From the NCBI RefSeq assembly GCF_003860125.1, contig NZ_RQYL01000001.1:62001-126000 (forward strand): 64,000 nt of DNA, read 5' to 3'. Within the stretch, counting starts at the first letter, position 1; the number at the start of each line of letters is the position of its first letter. Below, one piece after another: positions 19,405 to 28,587 of this stretch. The notes beneath the pieces are model-generated. The model saw nothing but the letters and a program-made list of their open reading frames with translations, was not told the origin of the DNA and ran no database searches. The position numbers were made by a program, and so were the translations under genes. This DNA is from Fretibacterium sp. OH1220_COT-178. Lineage in GTDB: Bacteria; Synergistota; Synergistia; Synergistales; Aminobacteriaceae.

Positions 19405-20721
19405 TTAAGGCCCTCTCTCCCAATTGGCCCCCTTGCGAGCCAGCCTCTGGGGAATCCGGTCCCCCCGAAGCAGGTCGTCGGGAGTCTGGCGCTCCACAAT
19501 CACCTCGGCCTCTCCTCCCTTCACGAGGACAACGGCCGGACGGCAAAGCCGATTGTAGTTGCTTGCCATCGAGAACGTGTAGGCCCCCGTGTTGAACAGA
19601 GCCAGGATATCTCCCCTGCGCGGTGAGGGAAGGCGCACGTCCTCGATCAGAATATCCCCTGTCTCGCAGCACTTTCCCGCAACGGACATCCTTTTCGCCT
19701 CCCGAGACAAGGGGGCATCGACGCGATTCGCCAAAGCGGCCTCATAGACCGCCTGATAGAGCGCGGGACGCGGGTTGTCGGCCATCCCGCCGTCCACACC
19801 GATATAGTTTACACCAGGAAGCTCCTTGACCGTCTCGACCCGATACAATGTGATGCCAGCCTCCGAGACGATCCAGCGCCCCGTTTCTATGGAGACGTGC
19901 GGAAGCTCGAGACCTCCGGCTGCGCAATCACGCACCAGAGCCTGCATCATCGCATCGGTGAACAGGCTCAGAGGCACATGGGGCTCGGACGGGTGCGAAC
20001 GCGCTCCAAACCCGCCGCCCAAATTCAGCTCCCGGGTGCAAAAACCGAAATCCTCCTTCAGACGCCTCATCGCGGAGACGACCCGAACGACGGACCGGAC
20101 GTGCGCCTCGGGTTCGAAAATCTGGGAGCCCACGTGAAAATGCAGACCTCGGAGCTCAAGCCACTCCGCCTCCAAGGCCTTGCGAACGGCTTGGGGCAAC
20201 AGATCGCCGTCCAGGGGCAGACCAAACTTGCTGCCCTCCTGCCCTGTGGTGATGTAGGCATGGGTATTGGGGGCAATCCCCGGGGCGACGCGGAGCAGAA
20301 TCTCCGACCTGCGCCCCTTACGGGCCGCAAGTTCCGCAAGAACCTCAAGCTCCATCAAGCCATCGACGATGATTCGGCCGATTCCCGCATCGAGGGCCGC
20401 GCTCAGTTCCGCCTCGCTTTTTGCGTTCCCGTGCATCTCTATACGGGAGGCCGGAAAACCGGAGGACAGGGCGGTATGCAGCTCGCCCAGGGAGACCACA
20501 TCCAATCCCAGTTCCTCGTCCTCCACGATGCGGGCCATAGCCTGAGTAAGAAAGGCTTTGCTGGCGTAACTGGCCGACGATTTCGGCCACCGGTCCAGAA
20601 AATCCTTTCTGACCTCCGCGCAGCGAGCCCGTATTACGGTTTCGTCCAGAACGTAAAGAGGCGTGCCGAATCGCTCGACCAGCTGCACGCAATCCGCCCC
20701 ACCCCAAAAAAGATGCGCCAC
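19405..20721 (-). CDS. lysA: Diaminopimelate decarboxylase
   Basis: PLP-dependent fold-III decarboxylase making L-lysine from meso-diaminopimelate. 438 residues from a GTG start preceded by AAGGGGG. Seen: the PLP lysine in SASYASKAFL, LDVVSLGEL, MHGNAKSEAEL, the HVGSQI loop, LNLGGGFGA, ETGRWIVSEAG, the C-terminal GKCCETGDIL active-site Cys and FNTGAYTFSMASNYN. All catalytic landmarks are present. It stands alone on the minus strand. Confidence 0.96.
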   Translation of the reverse strand: MAHLFWGGADCVQLVERFGTPLYVLDETVIRARCAEVRKDFLDRWPKSSASYASKAFLTQAMARIVEDEELGLDVVSLGELHTALSSGFPASRIEMHGNAKSEAELSAALDAGIGRIIVDGLMELEVLAELAARKGRRSEILLRVAPGIAPNTHAYITTGQEGSKFGLPLDGDLLPQAVRKALEAEWLELRGLHFHVGSQIFEPEAHVRSVVRVVSAMRRLKEDFGFCTRELNLGGGFGARSHPSEPHVPLSLFTDAMMQALVRDCAAGGLELPHVSIETGRWIVSEAGITLYRVETVKELPGVNYIGVDGGMADNPRPALYQAVYEAALANRVDAPLSREAKRMSVAGKCCETGDILIEDVRLPSPRRGDILALFNTGAYTFSMASNYNRLCRPAVVLVKGGEAEVIVERQTPDDLLRGDRIPQRLARKGANWERGP

Positions 20722-20805: not shown

Positions 20806-22053
20806 TCAGCCCGCCAGACTGTCCGTCGGCCCGGAGGCCAGCAGAGTGGTCAGCTCCTCCGGGATTACAAACTCGCCGAAGCTGTCCGTGACGTTGACCC
20901 GCAGGGACAGAAGCGACTGGATCACGGTCAGTTCCTGAAGGACATGACTGCCCTTTCTGTCCAGGGGGGCCGCCGAATTGACGACCCGAAAGGCATCCTC
21001 GCCCAGGATATCCATCCACAAAGCAACGCGGCGGATTGCCTTTCCCAGGAGCAAAAGCCAACGGAGCAGCTGCGGAGCGGGAAGTTTCGCCAGAGAAAAG
21101 AGCATGTAGACGAAGACGGATTTCGAGAAAACGCCACGCGGATGCACCTCGCGCGGCAGGGGCTGCTCGAGATAGGCATCGACACAGGCAAAGTCGGTTG
21201 TGGTGCAAAACGACTCCCCTTTCGTCATGCAGGCCAGGTAGGCCAGCAAAAGAGAGGGGGTGACGAAACGGGCATTCCGCATCCGAAAACGCAGGTGCTG
21301 CCATACCGAGATCTCGTTCTCCAATCGAAACGTCAGCGCCCCGGATGAAAATGGGAAAAAACCCTCGTCAAACATGGCATCGACCAAAGCCTGATCGACG
21401 ATGTTTTGATAAGGAACCATAGGCGGCACCACCGGAACGAGGCACAGAGGATACATGGGGCTGTACGGCGTGCTCTCGCGGCTCAAGATGCAGTCCCTGA
21501 AGTTGTCCAGAAGCTTTTGAAACGGAATTTTTTCCGTATTGTAGAGGTAGAAACGCGCCCCCGCAACAAATCCCTTGAGCAGTTTATAGGAAAAATCCGT
21601 CTGCCTGTGGGCGTTTACCGCCATAGGATTGGCACCGTAATAGAGGAGCTTCTTCATGATCTCCGGGTCACGGGCGGACATGAGCACGGTCGAGTCGCCA
21701 TAGCCTTGAGTGTTGTAGTCCGCGTCCGCCCCCATCTCGAGAAGACGCGTCACCGTTCGCGACAAGCCGCGGCGAGCCATCTCCATCAAAAAGGTGTCCC
21801 GACGTGCCAGCCCGAACGATGCGGAGTCGCAGTTCCATCCATTCCGGACCAACTCCGCCACGACCCCCGTAAAGACCTGATCCTTCAGGCCGTGGACGTC
21901 CTGTGGCGAATATCGGGTCACCCCAAACAAGGTCAGCAATCGCGAATCGCTCATGGCGAGAAGCTCGGCCAGGAGGTCCCGGGTCTCGGACAGCTCCCTG
22001 GCCCGAACAATTCGGGCTTGAACATTCTCGAAGTGAAGTGTTACGGCCGACAA
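20806..22053 (-). CDS. Ankyrin-repeat-containing protein of unknown function
   Basis: 415 residues from a TTG start after GGGGGACT. Residues about 85-160 carry two to three ankyrin-like units (RDTFLMEMARRGLSRTVTRLLEMGADAD, STVLMSARDPEIMKKLLYYGANPMAVNAHRQT). The remaining about 250 residues are helical with many aromatic residues and match nothing I recognise. No signal peptide or membrane helix. It lies 84 bases upstream of lysA but there is no sign of a shared role. Confidence 0.72.
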   Translation of the reverse strand: MSAVTLHFENVQARIVRARELSETRDLLAELLAMSDSRLLTLFGVTRYSPQDVHGLKDQVFTGVVAELVRNGWNCDSASFGLARRDTFLMEMARRGLSRTVTRLLEMGADADYNTQGYGDSTVLMSARDPEIMKKLLYYGANPMAVNAHRQTDFSYKLLKGFVAGARFYLYNTEKIPFQKLLDNFRDCILSRESTPYSPMYPLCLVPVVPPMVPYQNIVDQALVDAMFDEGFFPFSSGALTFRLENEISVWQHLRFRMRNARFVTPSLLLAYLACMTKGESFCTTTDFACVDAYLEQPLPREVHPRGVFSKSVFVYMLFSLAKLPAPQLLRWLLLLGKAIRRVALWMDILGEDAFRVVNSAAPLDRKGSHVLQELTVIQSLLSLRVNVTDSFGEFVIPEELTTLLASGPTDSLAG

Positions 22054-23105: not shown

Positions 23106-23148
23106 CTGCGCGATGACCACGACTCCCTCTCGCCTGTGGGAGGAATTC

Positions 23149-26100
23149 ATGCGCTTTTCCCCTCTGGCTACCCTCGATGTTCGTTTCCCCTCAGGGGAAA
23201 TGGAGCTCTCGTCCCGTCTTCTGTCGCTCCTCCGTCTGCCTGACGAATCGAGGCCGACGAACTTCGAGCAATGGCACGAATTGTGCCATCCCAACGACCA
23301 TAAAGAGGTGCGGACGCTGCTCGAGACCATCCACCACTCGCACCGTACCGCCCTTTCCCTGACTCGGCGTTTTTTTTGCGGCGACGGGATTTACCGCCCC
23401 CTTCGCCTGGATGCATGCATTCTGAGAGGCCCGGACGGACGGCCTCTGCGCCTGATGGGAACCGAGACGGACCTGACGCTCCAGCGCCTTCAGGAGCGCC
23501 AGACGGCTGCATGGCGAACGCTCAACCAGGAGCTGCAGAAAAGGCTCGGAGAGCTGAAGGAAGGGGAAAAACGTGCCGCAGACAATTGGAGGGCGGCAGA
23601 ATCCGAACGTTCCCGTCTGGAAGCGGTTGTCTCCCTCATACAACATATCCCTCTTCCCGTCCGTATTCTACGGGAGGGGGATATCTCATTTCAAAGCAAA
23701 GCTTTAGAGCTTCTGTCCCTGTCCGATCCCGAGATCGAAACCTGGCTGAGCGCGGTCGAGGACGGCGATATCCGGCAGCTGCATGACGCCCACGGCCGCA
23801 CGAGAATCCTGCAAAGCTCCGTATCCTCGTTCGCCGGCTTCGTGCTGATCGTTCTCTTCGACATTTCCGAGCGGGTCGAATTGGAGGGGGACAACCTGAA
23901 CCTGCGCCGTATCCTCCAGCGCCATGCGTTTCGTCCCACCTCGGAAGAAGCGGCCCCCGCCCCCGAGGCTCCCGCTTTCTGGTCCTCGGGGGCCGCCGAC
24001 GACGGCATTCAAATGGCGGACTCCGCACTGGACGCTCTGACGAACCTCCTCGAATCGGTCTTGCGGATTTTGAGGGCCCCGGAAATCGAACAAGCCTTCT
24101 CCTCCCGATCGGAGCAGATCGAGACCTTGCTCGGCTCCGTTGGACGCACGGAGCTTGCGGTGGGCGTCCTGGGGATTACGAGCAGCGGAAAGTCCAGTCT
24201 GATCAACGCAATGATGGGAGAGCGCCTCCTCCCCGAGGAAACCCGGGCCACGACCAACATGACGGTCCTCTGCCGCAAGGGGGGTCTGCGGGCCGTCGAC
24301 ATATGCTACGAGGACGGCAAAAGCGAGCGCGTCGTCGGCAGCGACCTCACCCCCAGACGGCTCGAGGAGCTGACCGCGGAGAGACGTAATCCCGGCAACA
24401 TGCGCGGCATCTCCCGAATCGAATGGACCAGCCCGGCTGCGGCCATCCCTCAAGGATTGGTCCTCATCGACACCCCGGGGATCGATGCCTGCGAGCTTCC
24501 CGGTCACAGCGAACTCGTTCTGCGCCGTATTCTTCCGACCCTGGACATCGTCCTCTACGTCTCCTCGATACGCAGCCCCTTCAAGACGGCCGACCTCAGC
24601 CTGATGCAGGCCGTCCTGGAGGGCAATCAGAGGATGATTCTCCTGCTCACCCAGATCGACCTCGAGCGGGACGACATCGAGGGGGGAAGGGTGATCCTCT
24701 CCCGAGACCAAAAATTGGCGTCCTACGTGCGGGAGCTGCGCCAGAACGTGTCTCGCTCGGCCATCCGGGAATGCGCAATCATACCGGTGTCCTCCAGGTT
24801 GGCCCTGAAGCATTTTTACGATCGAGAATCCACCGAATGGAGGGCATCGAACTTCGAGCCGCTCCTGCGGCAGACGGCCTTGTTCCGGGAACATCTGCTC
24901 CGTTACGGCGTCACGCTGCGAGGGCGAAGGGCACTGAACCTCCTGCGCCACATCCGCGAGGATATGGAAGCGGCCTTGAAAGACAGGGAGGGAGGAGACG
25001 ACCGGTCGGCACTCCTTCGCCAAACCGCTCGAATCCGAGAGCTCAGGGATGCCCAGCGGTGGGTCAGCGCCGAGATATCCTCGGTCCGCAACGAATGGAA
25101 GCATGCGCTCTCTCCCCTGCCGATCCTCTCTCGTTTTCGCCGCGACGTGGAGACGGTCCGAACCCCCGCGGGGCTCCGCGAGCGTTACCAACGATGGGGA
25201 CGAGAGTGGACCGAGCTCATGAACCGGATGACCGAGCGCATGGACCGCGCCAAACTATTCTGCGGCACGATGCTGTCTCGGCACGGCCTAGCCCCCCTAG
25301 ACCGACCGGCTCCCATCCTGGGCCCGGGCGCGGAGCTTCCCGACATCGACCGGTACGTCCGCCATCGCGCCACCGAGATCAGGGTTCGGGGCTGGTTTCA
25401 AGGGCTCGGGTTCTGGCCCGAGCATAAAAAATCCGTCCAATTGTCGCTCGACACCGAACGCCTCCTGCAGGATTGCGAAAAATTGCTGAAGGAGCGTCTC
25501 GAAGTTTTGGAGGAGCACCTGAATTGGTGGGAAAACATCATGAGGGAGACCACCTGTGATCCACTCTACGAGGAGCTGGCAAGGGAGGAAAAGGTCCTTG
25601 ACGAGGCCAGAAAGAACGTGGCGGACCGGGCAGCCTCCCGCTCCGCCCTTCGTGGGGCCGCGACCAGGCTTGGGGAGATCGAGCGAGGGCTTCTGCGCCT
25701 CGTCGACGAATCGGAATTCCCGACCGAAAAGGGCCAGGCGGACCTCATTCCTCCTCGCGCTTCCGATCCGACGTCGCCCCCTGGAGAGGAGAACTTTTTC
25801 ACCCCTCTTTTTCAGGCGATTGCGGAACAAAGCATACAGACCCGTTTTCTCTCCCTTCCCGCGGTGCGTAGACGCCGCCGCATCGTCCTGCTGGGGTTGA
25901 GGCGGCACGATTCCTTGAGGCTTCTCTCTCGCCTCGCTCACGATGCCGGCCTGACGGATATTCCCAGGACTCCGGAGGGACGAGAGATCGGAGAGGACGA
26001 ATGGATCTTTTGCGGCCGCATTCCGCCCGCAATCCCCCACTCGTCTCTGAGGGCTCCCTCCTCCATCCTGGACGAACTGGACTTGCTTGTCGCGCCCTCC

Positions 26101-26667
26101 GATAGCTATCGAGGAGAAGCGATGGACCCTGTGGACTGGCACGACGTATTCGGGGAATGGCTGCCTATCGTGCATCTGGACATCGCCCGAGTCGATTCCG
26201 GGCTGTCGGATCTCGCCCGCGCCCCATACGCCTCGGCACTCGCGAACGTTCCCGAGTGGATCGCGGCTTCGGCCCATGGAGGGCTCTTCGACAGCCGTTT
26301 GTCCGACCTGGTCCTGGACGTCCCTGAACGCCTGGCCTCCTTCACCCGCCTGCGGGGCTTTCAGGGACGCATGGATTGGTTCGTGTACGAGAATTACGAC
26401 CCTCGCTACACGGATCTAATCCCACTGGGACGGCAGGTCGACGCGAGCTCCCGAGACGAGGACCTCGAGACGCTGCTTCTCCTGTGGCAGGAGAGCGGCC
26501 TGGACTTCGTTCCGCCCCTGACGGAACAGCGACTGCGCCTGTGCCTCATGGAAATCCGGGAAAGATCGAGGGCGGATTCCTCGAGACTCTTGAATGGAGG
26601 AGAAGCTTCCCGTTTCTCGGGGGCGGAGCAGGAACGTAAAGAACGGAGGCATCTCGATGCAAAGTAA
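23149..26667 (+). CDS. PAS-domain-fused dynamin-like GTPase
   Basis: 1172 residues from the ATG at 23149, which has GGGAGG five bases upstream; the ATG at 23113 has no ribosome site. Residues about 1-112 look like a PAS domain (ELCHPNDHKEVRTLLETI, RFFCGDGIYRPLRL, GRPLRLMGTETDLT), followed by a coiled coil (about 112-165) and a second PAS-like unit (about 165-255). A dynamin-type GTPase follows: P-loop GITSSGKS (342-349), switch region ATTNMTV, DTPG (441-444), TQID (501-504). A long helical region (about 570-890) resembles a dynamin stalk. Near 912 a second Rossmann-like segment (IVLLGLRRHDSL) sits where a P-loop would be but lacks GKS, suggesting a dead second GTPase. The next gene overlaps it by 11 bases. 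Confidence 0.82.
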   Translation: MRFSPLATLDVRFPSGEMELSSRLLSLLRLPDESRPTNFEQWHELCHPNDHKEVRTLLETIHHSHRTALSLTRRFFCGDGIYRPLRLDACILRGPDGRPLRLMGTETDLTLQRLQERQTAAWRTLNQELQKRLGELKEGEKRAADNWRAAESERSRLEAVVSLIQHIPLPVRILREGDISFQSKALELLSLSDPEIETWLSAVEDGDIRQLHDAHGRTRILQSSVSSFAGFVLIVLFDISERVELEGDNLNLRRILQRHAFRPTSEEAAPAPEAPAFWSSGAADDGIQMADSALDALTNLLESVLRILRAPEIEQAFSSRSEQIETLLGSVGRTELAVGVLGITSSGKSSLINAMMGERLLPEETRATTNMTVLCRKGGLRAVDICYEDGKSERVVGSDLTPRRLEELTAERRNPGNMRGISRIEWTSPAAAIPQGLVLIDTPGIDACELPGHSELVLRRILPTLDIVLYVSSIRSPFKTADLSLMQAVLEGNQRMILLLTQIDLERDDIEGGRVILSRDQKLASYVRELRQNVSRSAIRECAIIPVSSRLALKHFYDRESTEWRASNFEPLLRQTALFREHLLRYGVTLRGRRALNLLRHIREDMEAALKDREGGDDRSALLRQTARIRELRDAQRWVSAEISSVRNEWKHALSPLPILSRFRRDVETVRTPAGLRERYQRWGREWTELMNRMTERMDRAKLFCGTMLSRHGLAPLDRPAPILGPGAELPDIDRYVRHRATEIRVRGWFQGLGFWPEHKKSVQLSLDTERLLQDCEKLLKERLEVLEEHLNWWENIMRETTCDPLYEELAREEKVLDEARKNVADRAASRSALRGAATRLGEIERGLLRLVDESEFPTEKGQADLIPPRASDPTSPPGEENFFTPLFQAIAEQSIQTRFLSLPAVRRRRRIVLLGLRRHDSLRLLSRLAHDAGLTDIPRTPEGREIGEDEWIFCGRIPPAIPHSSLRAPSSILDELDLLVAPSDSYRGEAMDPVDWHDVFGEWLPIVHLDIARVDSGLSDLARAPYASALANVPEWIAASAHGGLFDSRLSDLVLDVPERLASFTRLRGFQGRMDWFVYENYDPRYTDLIPLGRQVDASSRDEDLETLLLLWQESGLDFVPPLTEQRLRLCLMEIRERSRADSSRLLNGGEASRFSGAEQERKERRHLDAK

Positions 26668-27361
26668 GGAGACGCATCACCCCCCCCTGGACCACGCCGG
26701 GGCCCGCATCGTATCGGAGCTCGCGGACAGGCTGCTGCCTCCCCTCAGAGAGGCGCTTTTTGCAATGGAGCGTCGAGAGGAGGGGGGAATGGACGGGACT
26801 TTGGAAGAAGTTCTCGAGAGGGTCGCAAGGATCGAGAAAACCTCCGATGCATTGGCGAGGAAATTGGAGCGCTCCGACGAGCTCTCTCGGCCCCTGACCG
26901 ACCTGCTTCCCGAGCTCGCCTCCTTCATAAAGAGCTTCGAGGAGAAGCGGGCCACGCCTCCCGCCCCTCCCCAGCCACAACCCCTCGAGGAGAAGAGCAA
27001 CGGGCGAATGGACTTGGAGGGGGACCGGCTTATCGAGCTCATGGAAAACCGGATCCCGACATGGGAGGGGCTGTTGCGGGCGCACAATCAAGCACAGAGC
27101 AGAGAGCTCAACGCGCTTTCGGCAGAGCTTGCGGAAATGCAGAACGAGACGGCAAGCACCCTGCTCCGTGCCTTCAGGGAGACCTTGAGACAGGAGCTGG
27201 CCGACCGCGACGCGCTATGGTCCAAACGCCAGGAGAGCCTTCTTGAGGCGGCACAGCAACGTACGAACGCGATGCTAAGGCTCGTCTGGGCCTCGATCGG
27301 GATAGGGATGGCCTCCCTGCTGCTTTTGGTCGCCGTTCTCCTTAGGCTGATCGGCTTTTGA
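26657..27361 (+). CDS. Tail-anchored coiled-coil protein, partner of the PAS-dynamin gene
   Basis: 234 residues from ATG 26657, with CGGAGG seven bases upstream, starting inside the last codons of the GTPase gene. The sequence is rich in Glu, Arg, Leu and Ala in heptad-like runs (about 20-85 and 120-205), with a Pro/Gln-rich hinge (PPAPPQPQPLEE) between. One hydrophobic helix near the C-terminus (MLRLVWASIGIGMASLLLLV) is the only membrane segment, so it is tail-anchored with its bulk in the cytoplasm. No known domain recognised. Overlap and membrane anchor suggest it recruits the GTPase to the membrane. Confidence 0.78.
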   Translation: MQSKETHHPPLDHAGARIVSELADRLLPPLREALFAMERREEGGMDGTLEEVLERVARIEKTSDALARKLERSDELSRPLTDLLPELASFIKSFEEKRATPPAPPQPQPLEEKSNGRMDLEGDRLIELMENRIPTWEGLLRAHNQAQSRELNALSAELAEMQNETASTLLRAFRETLRQELADRDALWSKRQESLLEAAQQRTNAMLRLVWASIGIGMASLLLLVAVLLRLIGF

Positions 27362-28456
27362 TCCGCTCCCCGATATCTCCACCGAGACGGGATTGCCCCG
27401 CTTTGCGTCGATTTTATCGGCATACATCCTTTGATCCGCAATCCTCATCAGATTGAAGATCGAAGCCGTCTCCATTTCGCAGGACAGGGCCGCACCATAC
27501 GCAAAGGAGATTTTGAAATTTCCACAGGCCTCATTGTGTCGGTTCACTCCTTCGCAAAGCTCCCCATAGAAACGTCCTGCCTTTTCCCGATCGAAATTTT
27601 CAAAGAGCCCCAGAAACTCGTCGCCCCCGTTTCGCCCCACGAAGCCGTAGGGCTCCGCCGCCTCCATCAAGATTCGGGCAAATGATGCGATCAGACGATC
27701 TCCCGCCTCATGGCCCAAGGTATCGTTGACGCTCTTCAGGTTGTTCAAATCGACGACGAAGCACATCAGGTCGGGCAGGCGGGCGATCTCTCGATATTTC
27801 TTGACCTGGAGGTCACAGGACCAGCGATTGGGAAGCGTGGTCATCTGATCGACCATGGCCTTTTCCGCCAAAAATCGGTTGCGTTTGTAAAGGCGCCTGG
27901 CCTCTACCGTGTGCAAAAGGAAAACCACGGCCAGTATTCCGGACACGGCGATAAGCACGACCTTCAGCGAGAGGATTCGATCCGTCCTCTGTCCCGATAG
28001 CTGTTCCGCCAAAAAGACGACCGAATTCGCCGTTTCAAAAAAGGTCTCGCTGAGGGCAAAGAGATCGTCAAAGCTCCCCGTACGACGTTCGTCCCCGATG
28101 GCGTCCTTGAGCCTATTCCACTGCCCTTGAAGCTCACCCATCCTCTCCCGAAAGGCATCGTCGTCAAAGGGGTCCAGACCATGCGGGCCCCGGCCGCTTA
28201 TCAATTCGTCGATGATCTCATCGATTTCGGCAAGCAGCCCGTCGTTCCTTCTCCCCATGAGCTCCATCTTGACCAGCCTCTGGGTCGCCCCTCGCACGAT
28301 TCCGGTGTAGTTCATGACACGGGCATCGCCGCTGACGACGGTAGCCAGGTAAAAAGAAAGAAGGTTGAGGAGAATCAGGATCAGAAAAAGGGTTATGACG
28401 ATGAATTTTCTTCTGAAGATCTTTATCGCTCTTCCCCCCTGACAGGACACTCCCAT
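27275..28456 (-). CDS. Membrane diguanylate cyclase (PilJ-like sensor + GGDEF)
   Basis: Makes cyclic di-GMP. From ATG 28456, 393 residues (a TTG at 28483 is possible but has no ribosome site). TM1 (about 12-35) and TM2 (about 165-185) bracket an extracytoplasmic helical domain whose NYTGIVRGATQRLVKMEL resembles the PilJ/NIT-type 'NxxGxxRxxxQRxxK' signature. The GGDEF domain (about 205-345) begins DQMTTLPNRWSC, carries LNNLKSVNDTLGHEAGD and the catalytic GRNGGDEFLGLFENF. No RxxD inhibitory site was evident just before GGDEF. Its 3' end overlaps the convergent coiled-coil gene by 87 bases, making a 40-residue extra tail. Confidence 0.88.
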   Translation of the reverse strand: MGVSCQGGRAIKIFRRKFIVITLFLILILLNLLSFYLATVVSGDARVMNYTGIVRGATQRLVKMELMGRRNDGLLAEIDEIIDELISGRGPHGLDPFDDDAFRERMGELQGQWNRLKDAIGDERRTGSFDDLFALSETFFETANSVVFLAEQLSGQRTDRILSLKVVLIAVSGILAVVFLLHTVEARRLYKRNRFLAEKAMVDQMTTLPNRWSCDLQVKKYREIARLPDLMCFVVDLNNLKSVNDTLGHEAGDRLIASFARILMEAAEPYGFVGRNGGDEFLGLFENFDREKAGRFYGELCEGVNRHNEACGNFKISFAYGAALSCEMETASIFNLMRIADQRMYADKIDAKRGNPVSVEISGSGSKADQPKENGDQKQQGGHPYPDRGPDEP

Positions 28457-28587
28457 CCCGTTACTCGCCGCCCCAAACCACAAATTTTTCGACTAAAGCC
28501 ACGACATCCGCCCCATTCCTGCAAGTCTCAACCTTATACTCCAACTCCATGGGGCTGTCAAGCAAAACCGGGGCCCGCCGGAGACGT

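Follow-up and report, generated by a model that had tools for sequence, protein, structure and literature searches.

Organization of the locus

The window, the 64,000-nucleotide stretch of the Fretibacterium sp. OH1220_COT-178 contig analyzed here, contains a gene encoding a single chain in the order PAS domain, helix, PAS domain, dynamin-type GTPase, helical stalk and C-terminal domain, followed by a gene for a tail-anchored partner (Table 1). A one-chain layout of two PAS-like units, a GTPase, a stalk and a second alpha/beta region lacking GKS had been proposed in the sequence-only reading, as had an 11-base overlap with the next gene, whose coiled-coil product has one C-terminal membrane helix. 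Pfam searches and an AlphaFold2 model (alignment of 35 rows, mean pLDDT 79.9) bore out the layout, with corrections, and the overlap and anchor were confirmed by the ORF coordinates and hydropathy.

The first ATG of the large open reading frame is at 23113, giving 1184 residues; the earlier reading had started from the ATG at 23149, giving 1172. Position 23113 is the likelier start because a W..F motif conserved in relatives just before residue 1 of the 1172-residue form equals MTTTPSRLWEEFMRF of the window's protein; this segment of the relatives matches the extra 12 residues of the longer form. The GGAGG ahead of 23149 lies within the codons for those 12 residues. Domain residue numbers below are those of the 1172-residue form.

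Table 1 Features of the PAS-dynamin locus and its surroundings (window positions unless a locus is named)
Feature	Position	Strand	Residues or size	Basis and remarks
Pyridoxal-dependent decarboxylase	19405-20721
Protein with weak ankyrin-repeat matches	20806-22053		415 aa
PAS-dynamin-pseudoGTPase gene	23113-26667	+	1184 aa	1172 aa if the start is 23149
PAS1	23170-23472	+	8-108	PAS_3 match; PAS secondary structure with high pLDDT
Long connecting helix, PAS1 to PAS2	23476-23646	+	110-166	AlphaFold2 model
PAS2, diverged	23653-23862	+	169-238	Profile match and model
Dynamin-type GTPase domain	24151-24813	+	335-555	Dynamin_N match
Helical stalk	24856-25710	+	570-854	Model and Foldseek; only in long forms
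Beta-hairpin at stalk tip	25357-25449	+	737-767	Conserved RGWF..FWP; candidate membrane contact; low model confidence
C-terminal pseudo-GTPase-like domain	25801-26433	+	885-1095	Model and Foldseek
Partner gene	26657-27361	+	234 aa	Helical; C-terminal membrane anchor
Partner motif LD..(T/G)ARIVSELA, N-terminal	26687-26725	+		Alignment; also in unlinked orthologues
Partner motif WEG.LRA...Q(T/S)REL..LS.E	27062-27130	+		Alignment; related motif in unlinked orthologues
Partner single transmembrane helix, C-terminal	27272-27346	+		Hydropathy
Diguanylate cyclase	27275-28483	-		GGDEF, E = 1.4e-23; converges on the pair
OmpA-like genes of relatives (examples)	L073:3493-4533, L074:5000-5926, seven further loci			DHPLF.RP.GY N-terminal region

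A tandem PAS section

Pfam PAS_3 matches residues 32-105 of PAS1 above its cut-off (E = 1e-7) and is matched in 33 of the 35 family members; Cys77 of this domain is invariant. PAS2 of the window's protein has no Pfam match. A family profile of PAS2 compared with solved PAS domains nevertheless matches the BvgS PAS domain (E = 2.8e-10), and PAS_4 matches the PAS2 region of one relative (L077), indicating that PAS2 is diverged in the window's protein and clear in relatives. No profile homology was found between PAS1 and PAS2, so PAS2 is assigned through its matches to PAS domains of other proteins. PAS2 terminates in a D-I/V-S/T-E motif, which is followed by a helix.

In the AlphaFold2 model both units display the PAS-type order of strands and helices and are joined by the long helix, and Foldseek finds that the front part of the chain resembles the tandem PAS proteins FixL and LOV-PAS. 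Thus, by Pfam, the relatives, profile comparison, model and Foldseek, the two PAS-like units proposed for the first ~250 residues both fold as PAS. No known ligand-binding or cofactor signature was identified in these PAS domains.

A dynamin-type GTPase, its stalk and a probable pseudo-GTPase head

Dynamin_N matches residues 338-502 above cut-off (E = 1.6e-18) and is found in 31 of the 35 family members. The G1 to G4 motifs of the dynamin superfamily are all present (GITSSGKS, TRATTN, DTPG and TQID), with G4 taking the form T/SQID instead of TKxD, which upholds the complete GTPase recognized earlier from GITSSGKS, DTPG and TQID. The nearest solved structures by sequence profile are C. jejuni DLP1, BDLP, mitofusin and IniA. 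As in the dynamin superfamily, a stalk follows the G domain of the window's protein; the model places its long helices at residues 570-711 and 769-854, and Foldseek aligns the GTPase and stalk together with IniA, BDLP and mitofusin, in agreement with the long helical stalk first proposed. The stalk is absent from short relatives, while the aromatic hairpin at its tip was found in all long forms.

The C-terminal domain is strongly conserved over residues 885-1085, including RHDSLRLLSRLAHD, DSGLSDLARAPY and WF.YENY. It has no sequence relatives that we could find in Pfam or the PDB, it lacks the P-loop, DxxG and NKxD motifs, and hhalign detected no profile homology with the protein's own G domain. 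Modelled alone, the domain reaches a pTM of 0.84, and nearly all of its top Foldseek matches are to G domains (SAR1, EHD, EngB, Rag and Arf; E 1e-4 to 1e-3), with TM scores that are moderate at 0.43-0.51. The link to G domains came only from this fold search. We conclude that the domain is probably a pseudo-GTPase, i.e., a G-domain fold without nucleotide motifs. The second alpha/beta domain without GKS is thus present as first described, and the model and Foldseek matches make it most likely a pseudo-GTPase head instead of a Rossmann-like region.

Distribution and loss of parts in the family

The C-terminal domain was detected in 58 of 188 genomes searched from the phylum Synergistota. All 58 belong to the window's own family-level group, and the PAS-dynamin family was seen nowhere else. 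Named relatives include Fretibacterium (among them F. fastidiosum) as well as further Synergistaceae, a large share of them sampled from the rumen; the carriers are gut- and mouth-dwelling bacteria.

All 15 long forms have an intact P-loop, G2 and G3. By contrast, the stalk is absent in 40 of 40 short forms, and among these the G2 threonines are gone in 20, the D.PG motif in 10 and the P-loop lysine in 4. Five proteins (L101, L102, L047, L115 and L117) have degenerate P-loops, with GK changed to GR or GG, and lack the G2 region, making them natural pseudo-enzymes. Short forms retain PAS1 (the exception being L060, which lacks it), the C-terminal domain and the partner. Because the short forms lose the stalk and often catalytic motifs yet keep these parts, neither stalk nor catalysis, judged from the sequences, belongs to the common core of the family. 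In a quick tree, the long or short state requires two changes.

The partner is retained with the PAS-dynamin protein

In all complete loci of long forms, and in some short-form loci, the partner gene lies immediately 3' of the GTPase gene. A profile built without sequences of the rumen genus g16 was used to survey 101 genomes and found the partner in 40, comprising 39 of the 41 with PAS-dynamin and 1 of the 60 without it (Fisher p about 2e-24 by genomes and 3e-8 by genera, both values inflated by kinship). In both genomes with the GTPase only, that gene is at or near a contig end. The single partner-only genome (G014; L135:3363-4855, minus strand) has an OmpA-like gene directly adjoining a truncated partner, with PAS-dynamin missing between them, an apparent loss from a three-gene operon.

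The pair is adjacent in most genera and unlinked in the large genus g16, where loss of the partner was ruled out: all the GTPase-bearing genomes of this genus that were searched have it. There it sits on a different contig, in many genomes next to haem-synthesis genes, and has recognizable forms of both motifs. Retention after unlinking would be hard to explain otherwise, and the two proteins are evidently functionally coupled. The expectation that the pair is kept across related Synergistota genomes was thereby borne out.

Neighboring genes

The pyridoxal-dependent decarboxylase recurs near the PAS-dynamin gene in 33 loci, and FliD is nearby in 16 rumen loci. The 415-residue protein with weak ankyrin-repeat matches has a conserved counterpart (64-69%) next to the PAS-dynamin gene at two loci from Fretibacterium. 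A gene for a secreted OmpA-like protein lies immediately upstream on the same strand in nine PAS-dynamin loci; many of the long relatives have it. This gene occurs in 13 genomes of the window's group, 12 of which also have PAS-dynamin, and homologues outside the family occur without the pair; none was found in the window's genome (best match E = 0.12). No phage or plasmid carriage of PAS-dynamin was found.

The diguanylate cyclase gene that had been singled out as converging on the pair is indeed present, and its frame runs tail to tail into the last 87 bases of the partner gene (27275-27361). Its relevance is not supported, as none of the other loci has a counterpart close to the pair.

A proposed signal-regulated module at the inner membrane

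The explanation that we place first, with confidence evenly poised, is a dynamin-type module that is regulated by a signal, attached to the inner membrane and acting throughout the family as a sensor/scaffold switch. The tandem PAS domains would sense or bind a cytoplasmic cue and their helices would relay it to the GTPase head, the state of which may alter how it pairs with the pseudo-GTPase head in its own or a neighboring chain. The tail-anchored partner would place the complex at the inner membrane or carry the output, and would most likely touch PAS1 or the pseudo-GTPase head, since these are the only parts retained in nearly all members. Long forms like that of the window may also self-assemble via the stalk.

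The sequence-only reading had favored a signal-controlled membrane-remodelling or membrane-protection module. Its PAS fusion, dynamin-type GTPase and coupled tail-anchored partner stand, but remodelling or protection as a family-wide role is weakened by the short relatives: because these proteins, without a stalk and often without GTPase motifs, keep PAS1, the C-terminal domain and the partner, the pattern favors signalling or scaffolding at the membrane as the function that the family's members share. In the window's protein itself, both the GTPase motifs and the stalk appear complete, which counts against a purely signalling reading, and membrane remodelling by long forms such as this one is possible.

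A true remodelling or protecting dynamin of the DynA, BDLP or IniA kind, with PAS-gated assembly and the partner as membrane anchor, would account for the long forms, all of which combine intact G1-G3 motifs with a long stalk and an aromatic tip hairpin, and for the alignment of GTPase and stalk with IniA and BDLP. The secreted OmpA-like protein encoded in the same operon at nine loci would tie such a module to the cell envelope, and in B. subtilis, DynA has a role in surveillance of the membrane and in protection from phage lysis (PMC8844932). Yet the stalk tip is poorly modelled, and this account must accommodate the many relatives in which the stalk and often catalytic motifs are gone while PAS1, the C-terminal domain and the partner persist; we regard it as rather unlikely, though the most serious of the alternatives. 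A defence role proper, Leo- or DynA-like, seems very improbable: the weak PADLOC match to LeoA (E = 8e-10) spans a generic GTPase region, the NCBIfam LeoA model NF041922 scores 11 bits against a cut-off of 325, and the gene is chromosomal, with recurring neighbors, and was not found in phages or plasmids.

Improbable, to a lesser degree, is that the GTPase and its small partner turn on a diguanylate cyclase, as E. coli RdcA (CrfC/YjdA) and RdcB (YjcZ) activate DgcE (PMC6510439). The shared plan and the GGDEF gene adjoining the pair in the window suggest it, and the E. coli RdcA P-loop mutant K82A is still functional (PMC6510439), which fits lineages without GTPase motifs. Against this, the GGDEF gene is absent near the pair at all other loci, RdcB is soluble whereas the window's partner has a membrane helix, and similarity to CrfC is confined to the P-loop region, with the NCBIfam model NF007368 scoring 19 bits against a cut-off of 1146. 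RdcA/RdcB remains a precedent for a dynamin-like GTPase in signalling, one that is functional even with its P-loop mutated.

Taken as a class, these proteins may be group-specific dynamin-like signal transducers, with PAS input, a GTPase that can be switched off, a pseudo-GTPase and an obligate tail-anchored partner as core output unit, a view we hold tentatively, at slightly less than even confidence. The family constitutes a natural experiment in which relatives have shed the stalk, and even GTPase motifs, but retain the sensor, second head and partner, making the question of a dynamin as signal-gated switch versus membrane cutter directly testable.

Comparison with known systems

Each part of the module is of a known kind; the combination of domains and the loss pattern appear not to have been described before. 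Our literature search, of incomplete coverage, found no bacterial dynamin fused to PAS or other sensor domains, in line with the earlier statement that the bacterial dynamin-like proteins BDLP, DynA and LeoA are not known to be described as PAS-fused.

The best sequence and fold matches, BDLP, IniA and C. jejuni DLP1/2, share the dynamin-type GTPase and long helical stalk. The window's protein adds two PAS domains and the probable C-terminal pseudo-GTPase, and its operon partner is a tail-anchored helical protein and not a second dynamin. B. subtilis DynA has two GTPase-fold heads in one chain. The window's protein probably likewise has two such heads, and the NCBIfam DynA model matches its GTPase (E = 3.2e-9), but its second head is motif-less and without a stalk of its own, and PAS domains are present. 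It accordingly falls outside the two-headed DynA type, in which each head has a stalk (its score with NF052648 is 35, where the cut-off is 1600).

RdcA/RdcB offers the likeness of a dynamin-like GTPase used in signalling with a small operon partner (PMC6510439), although no PAS domain is described in RdcA. FixL and the LOV-PAS kinases resemble the window's protein by fold in their PAS-helix-PAS-helix input section, while in the window's protein a dynamin GTPase takes the place of the kinase or cyclase output.
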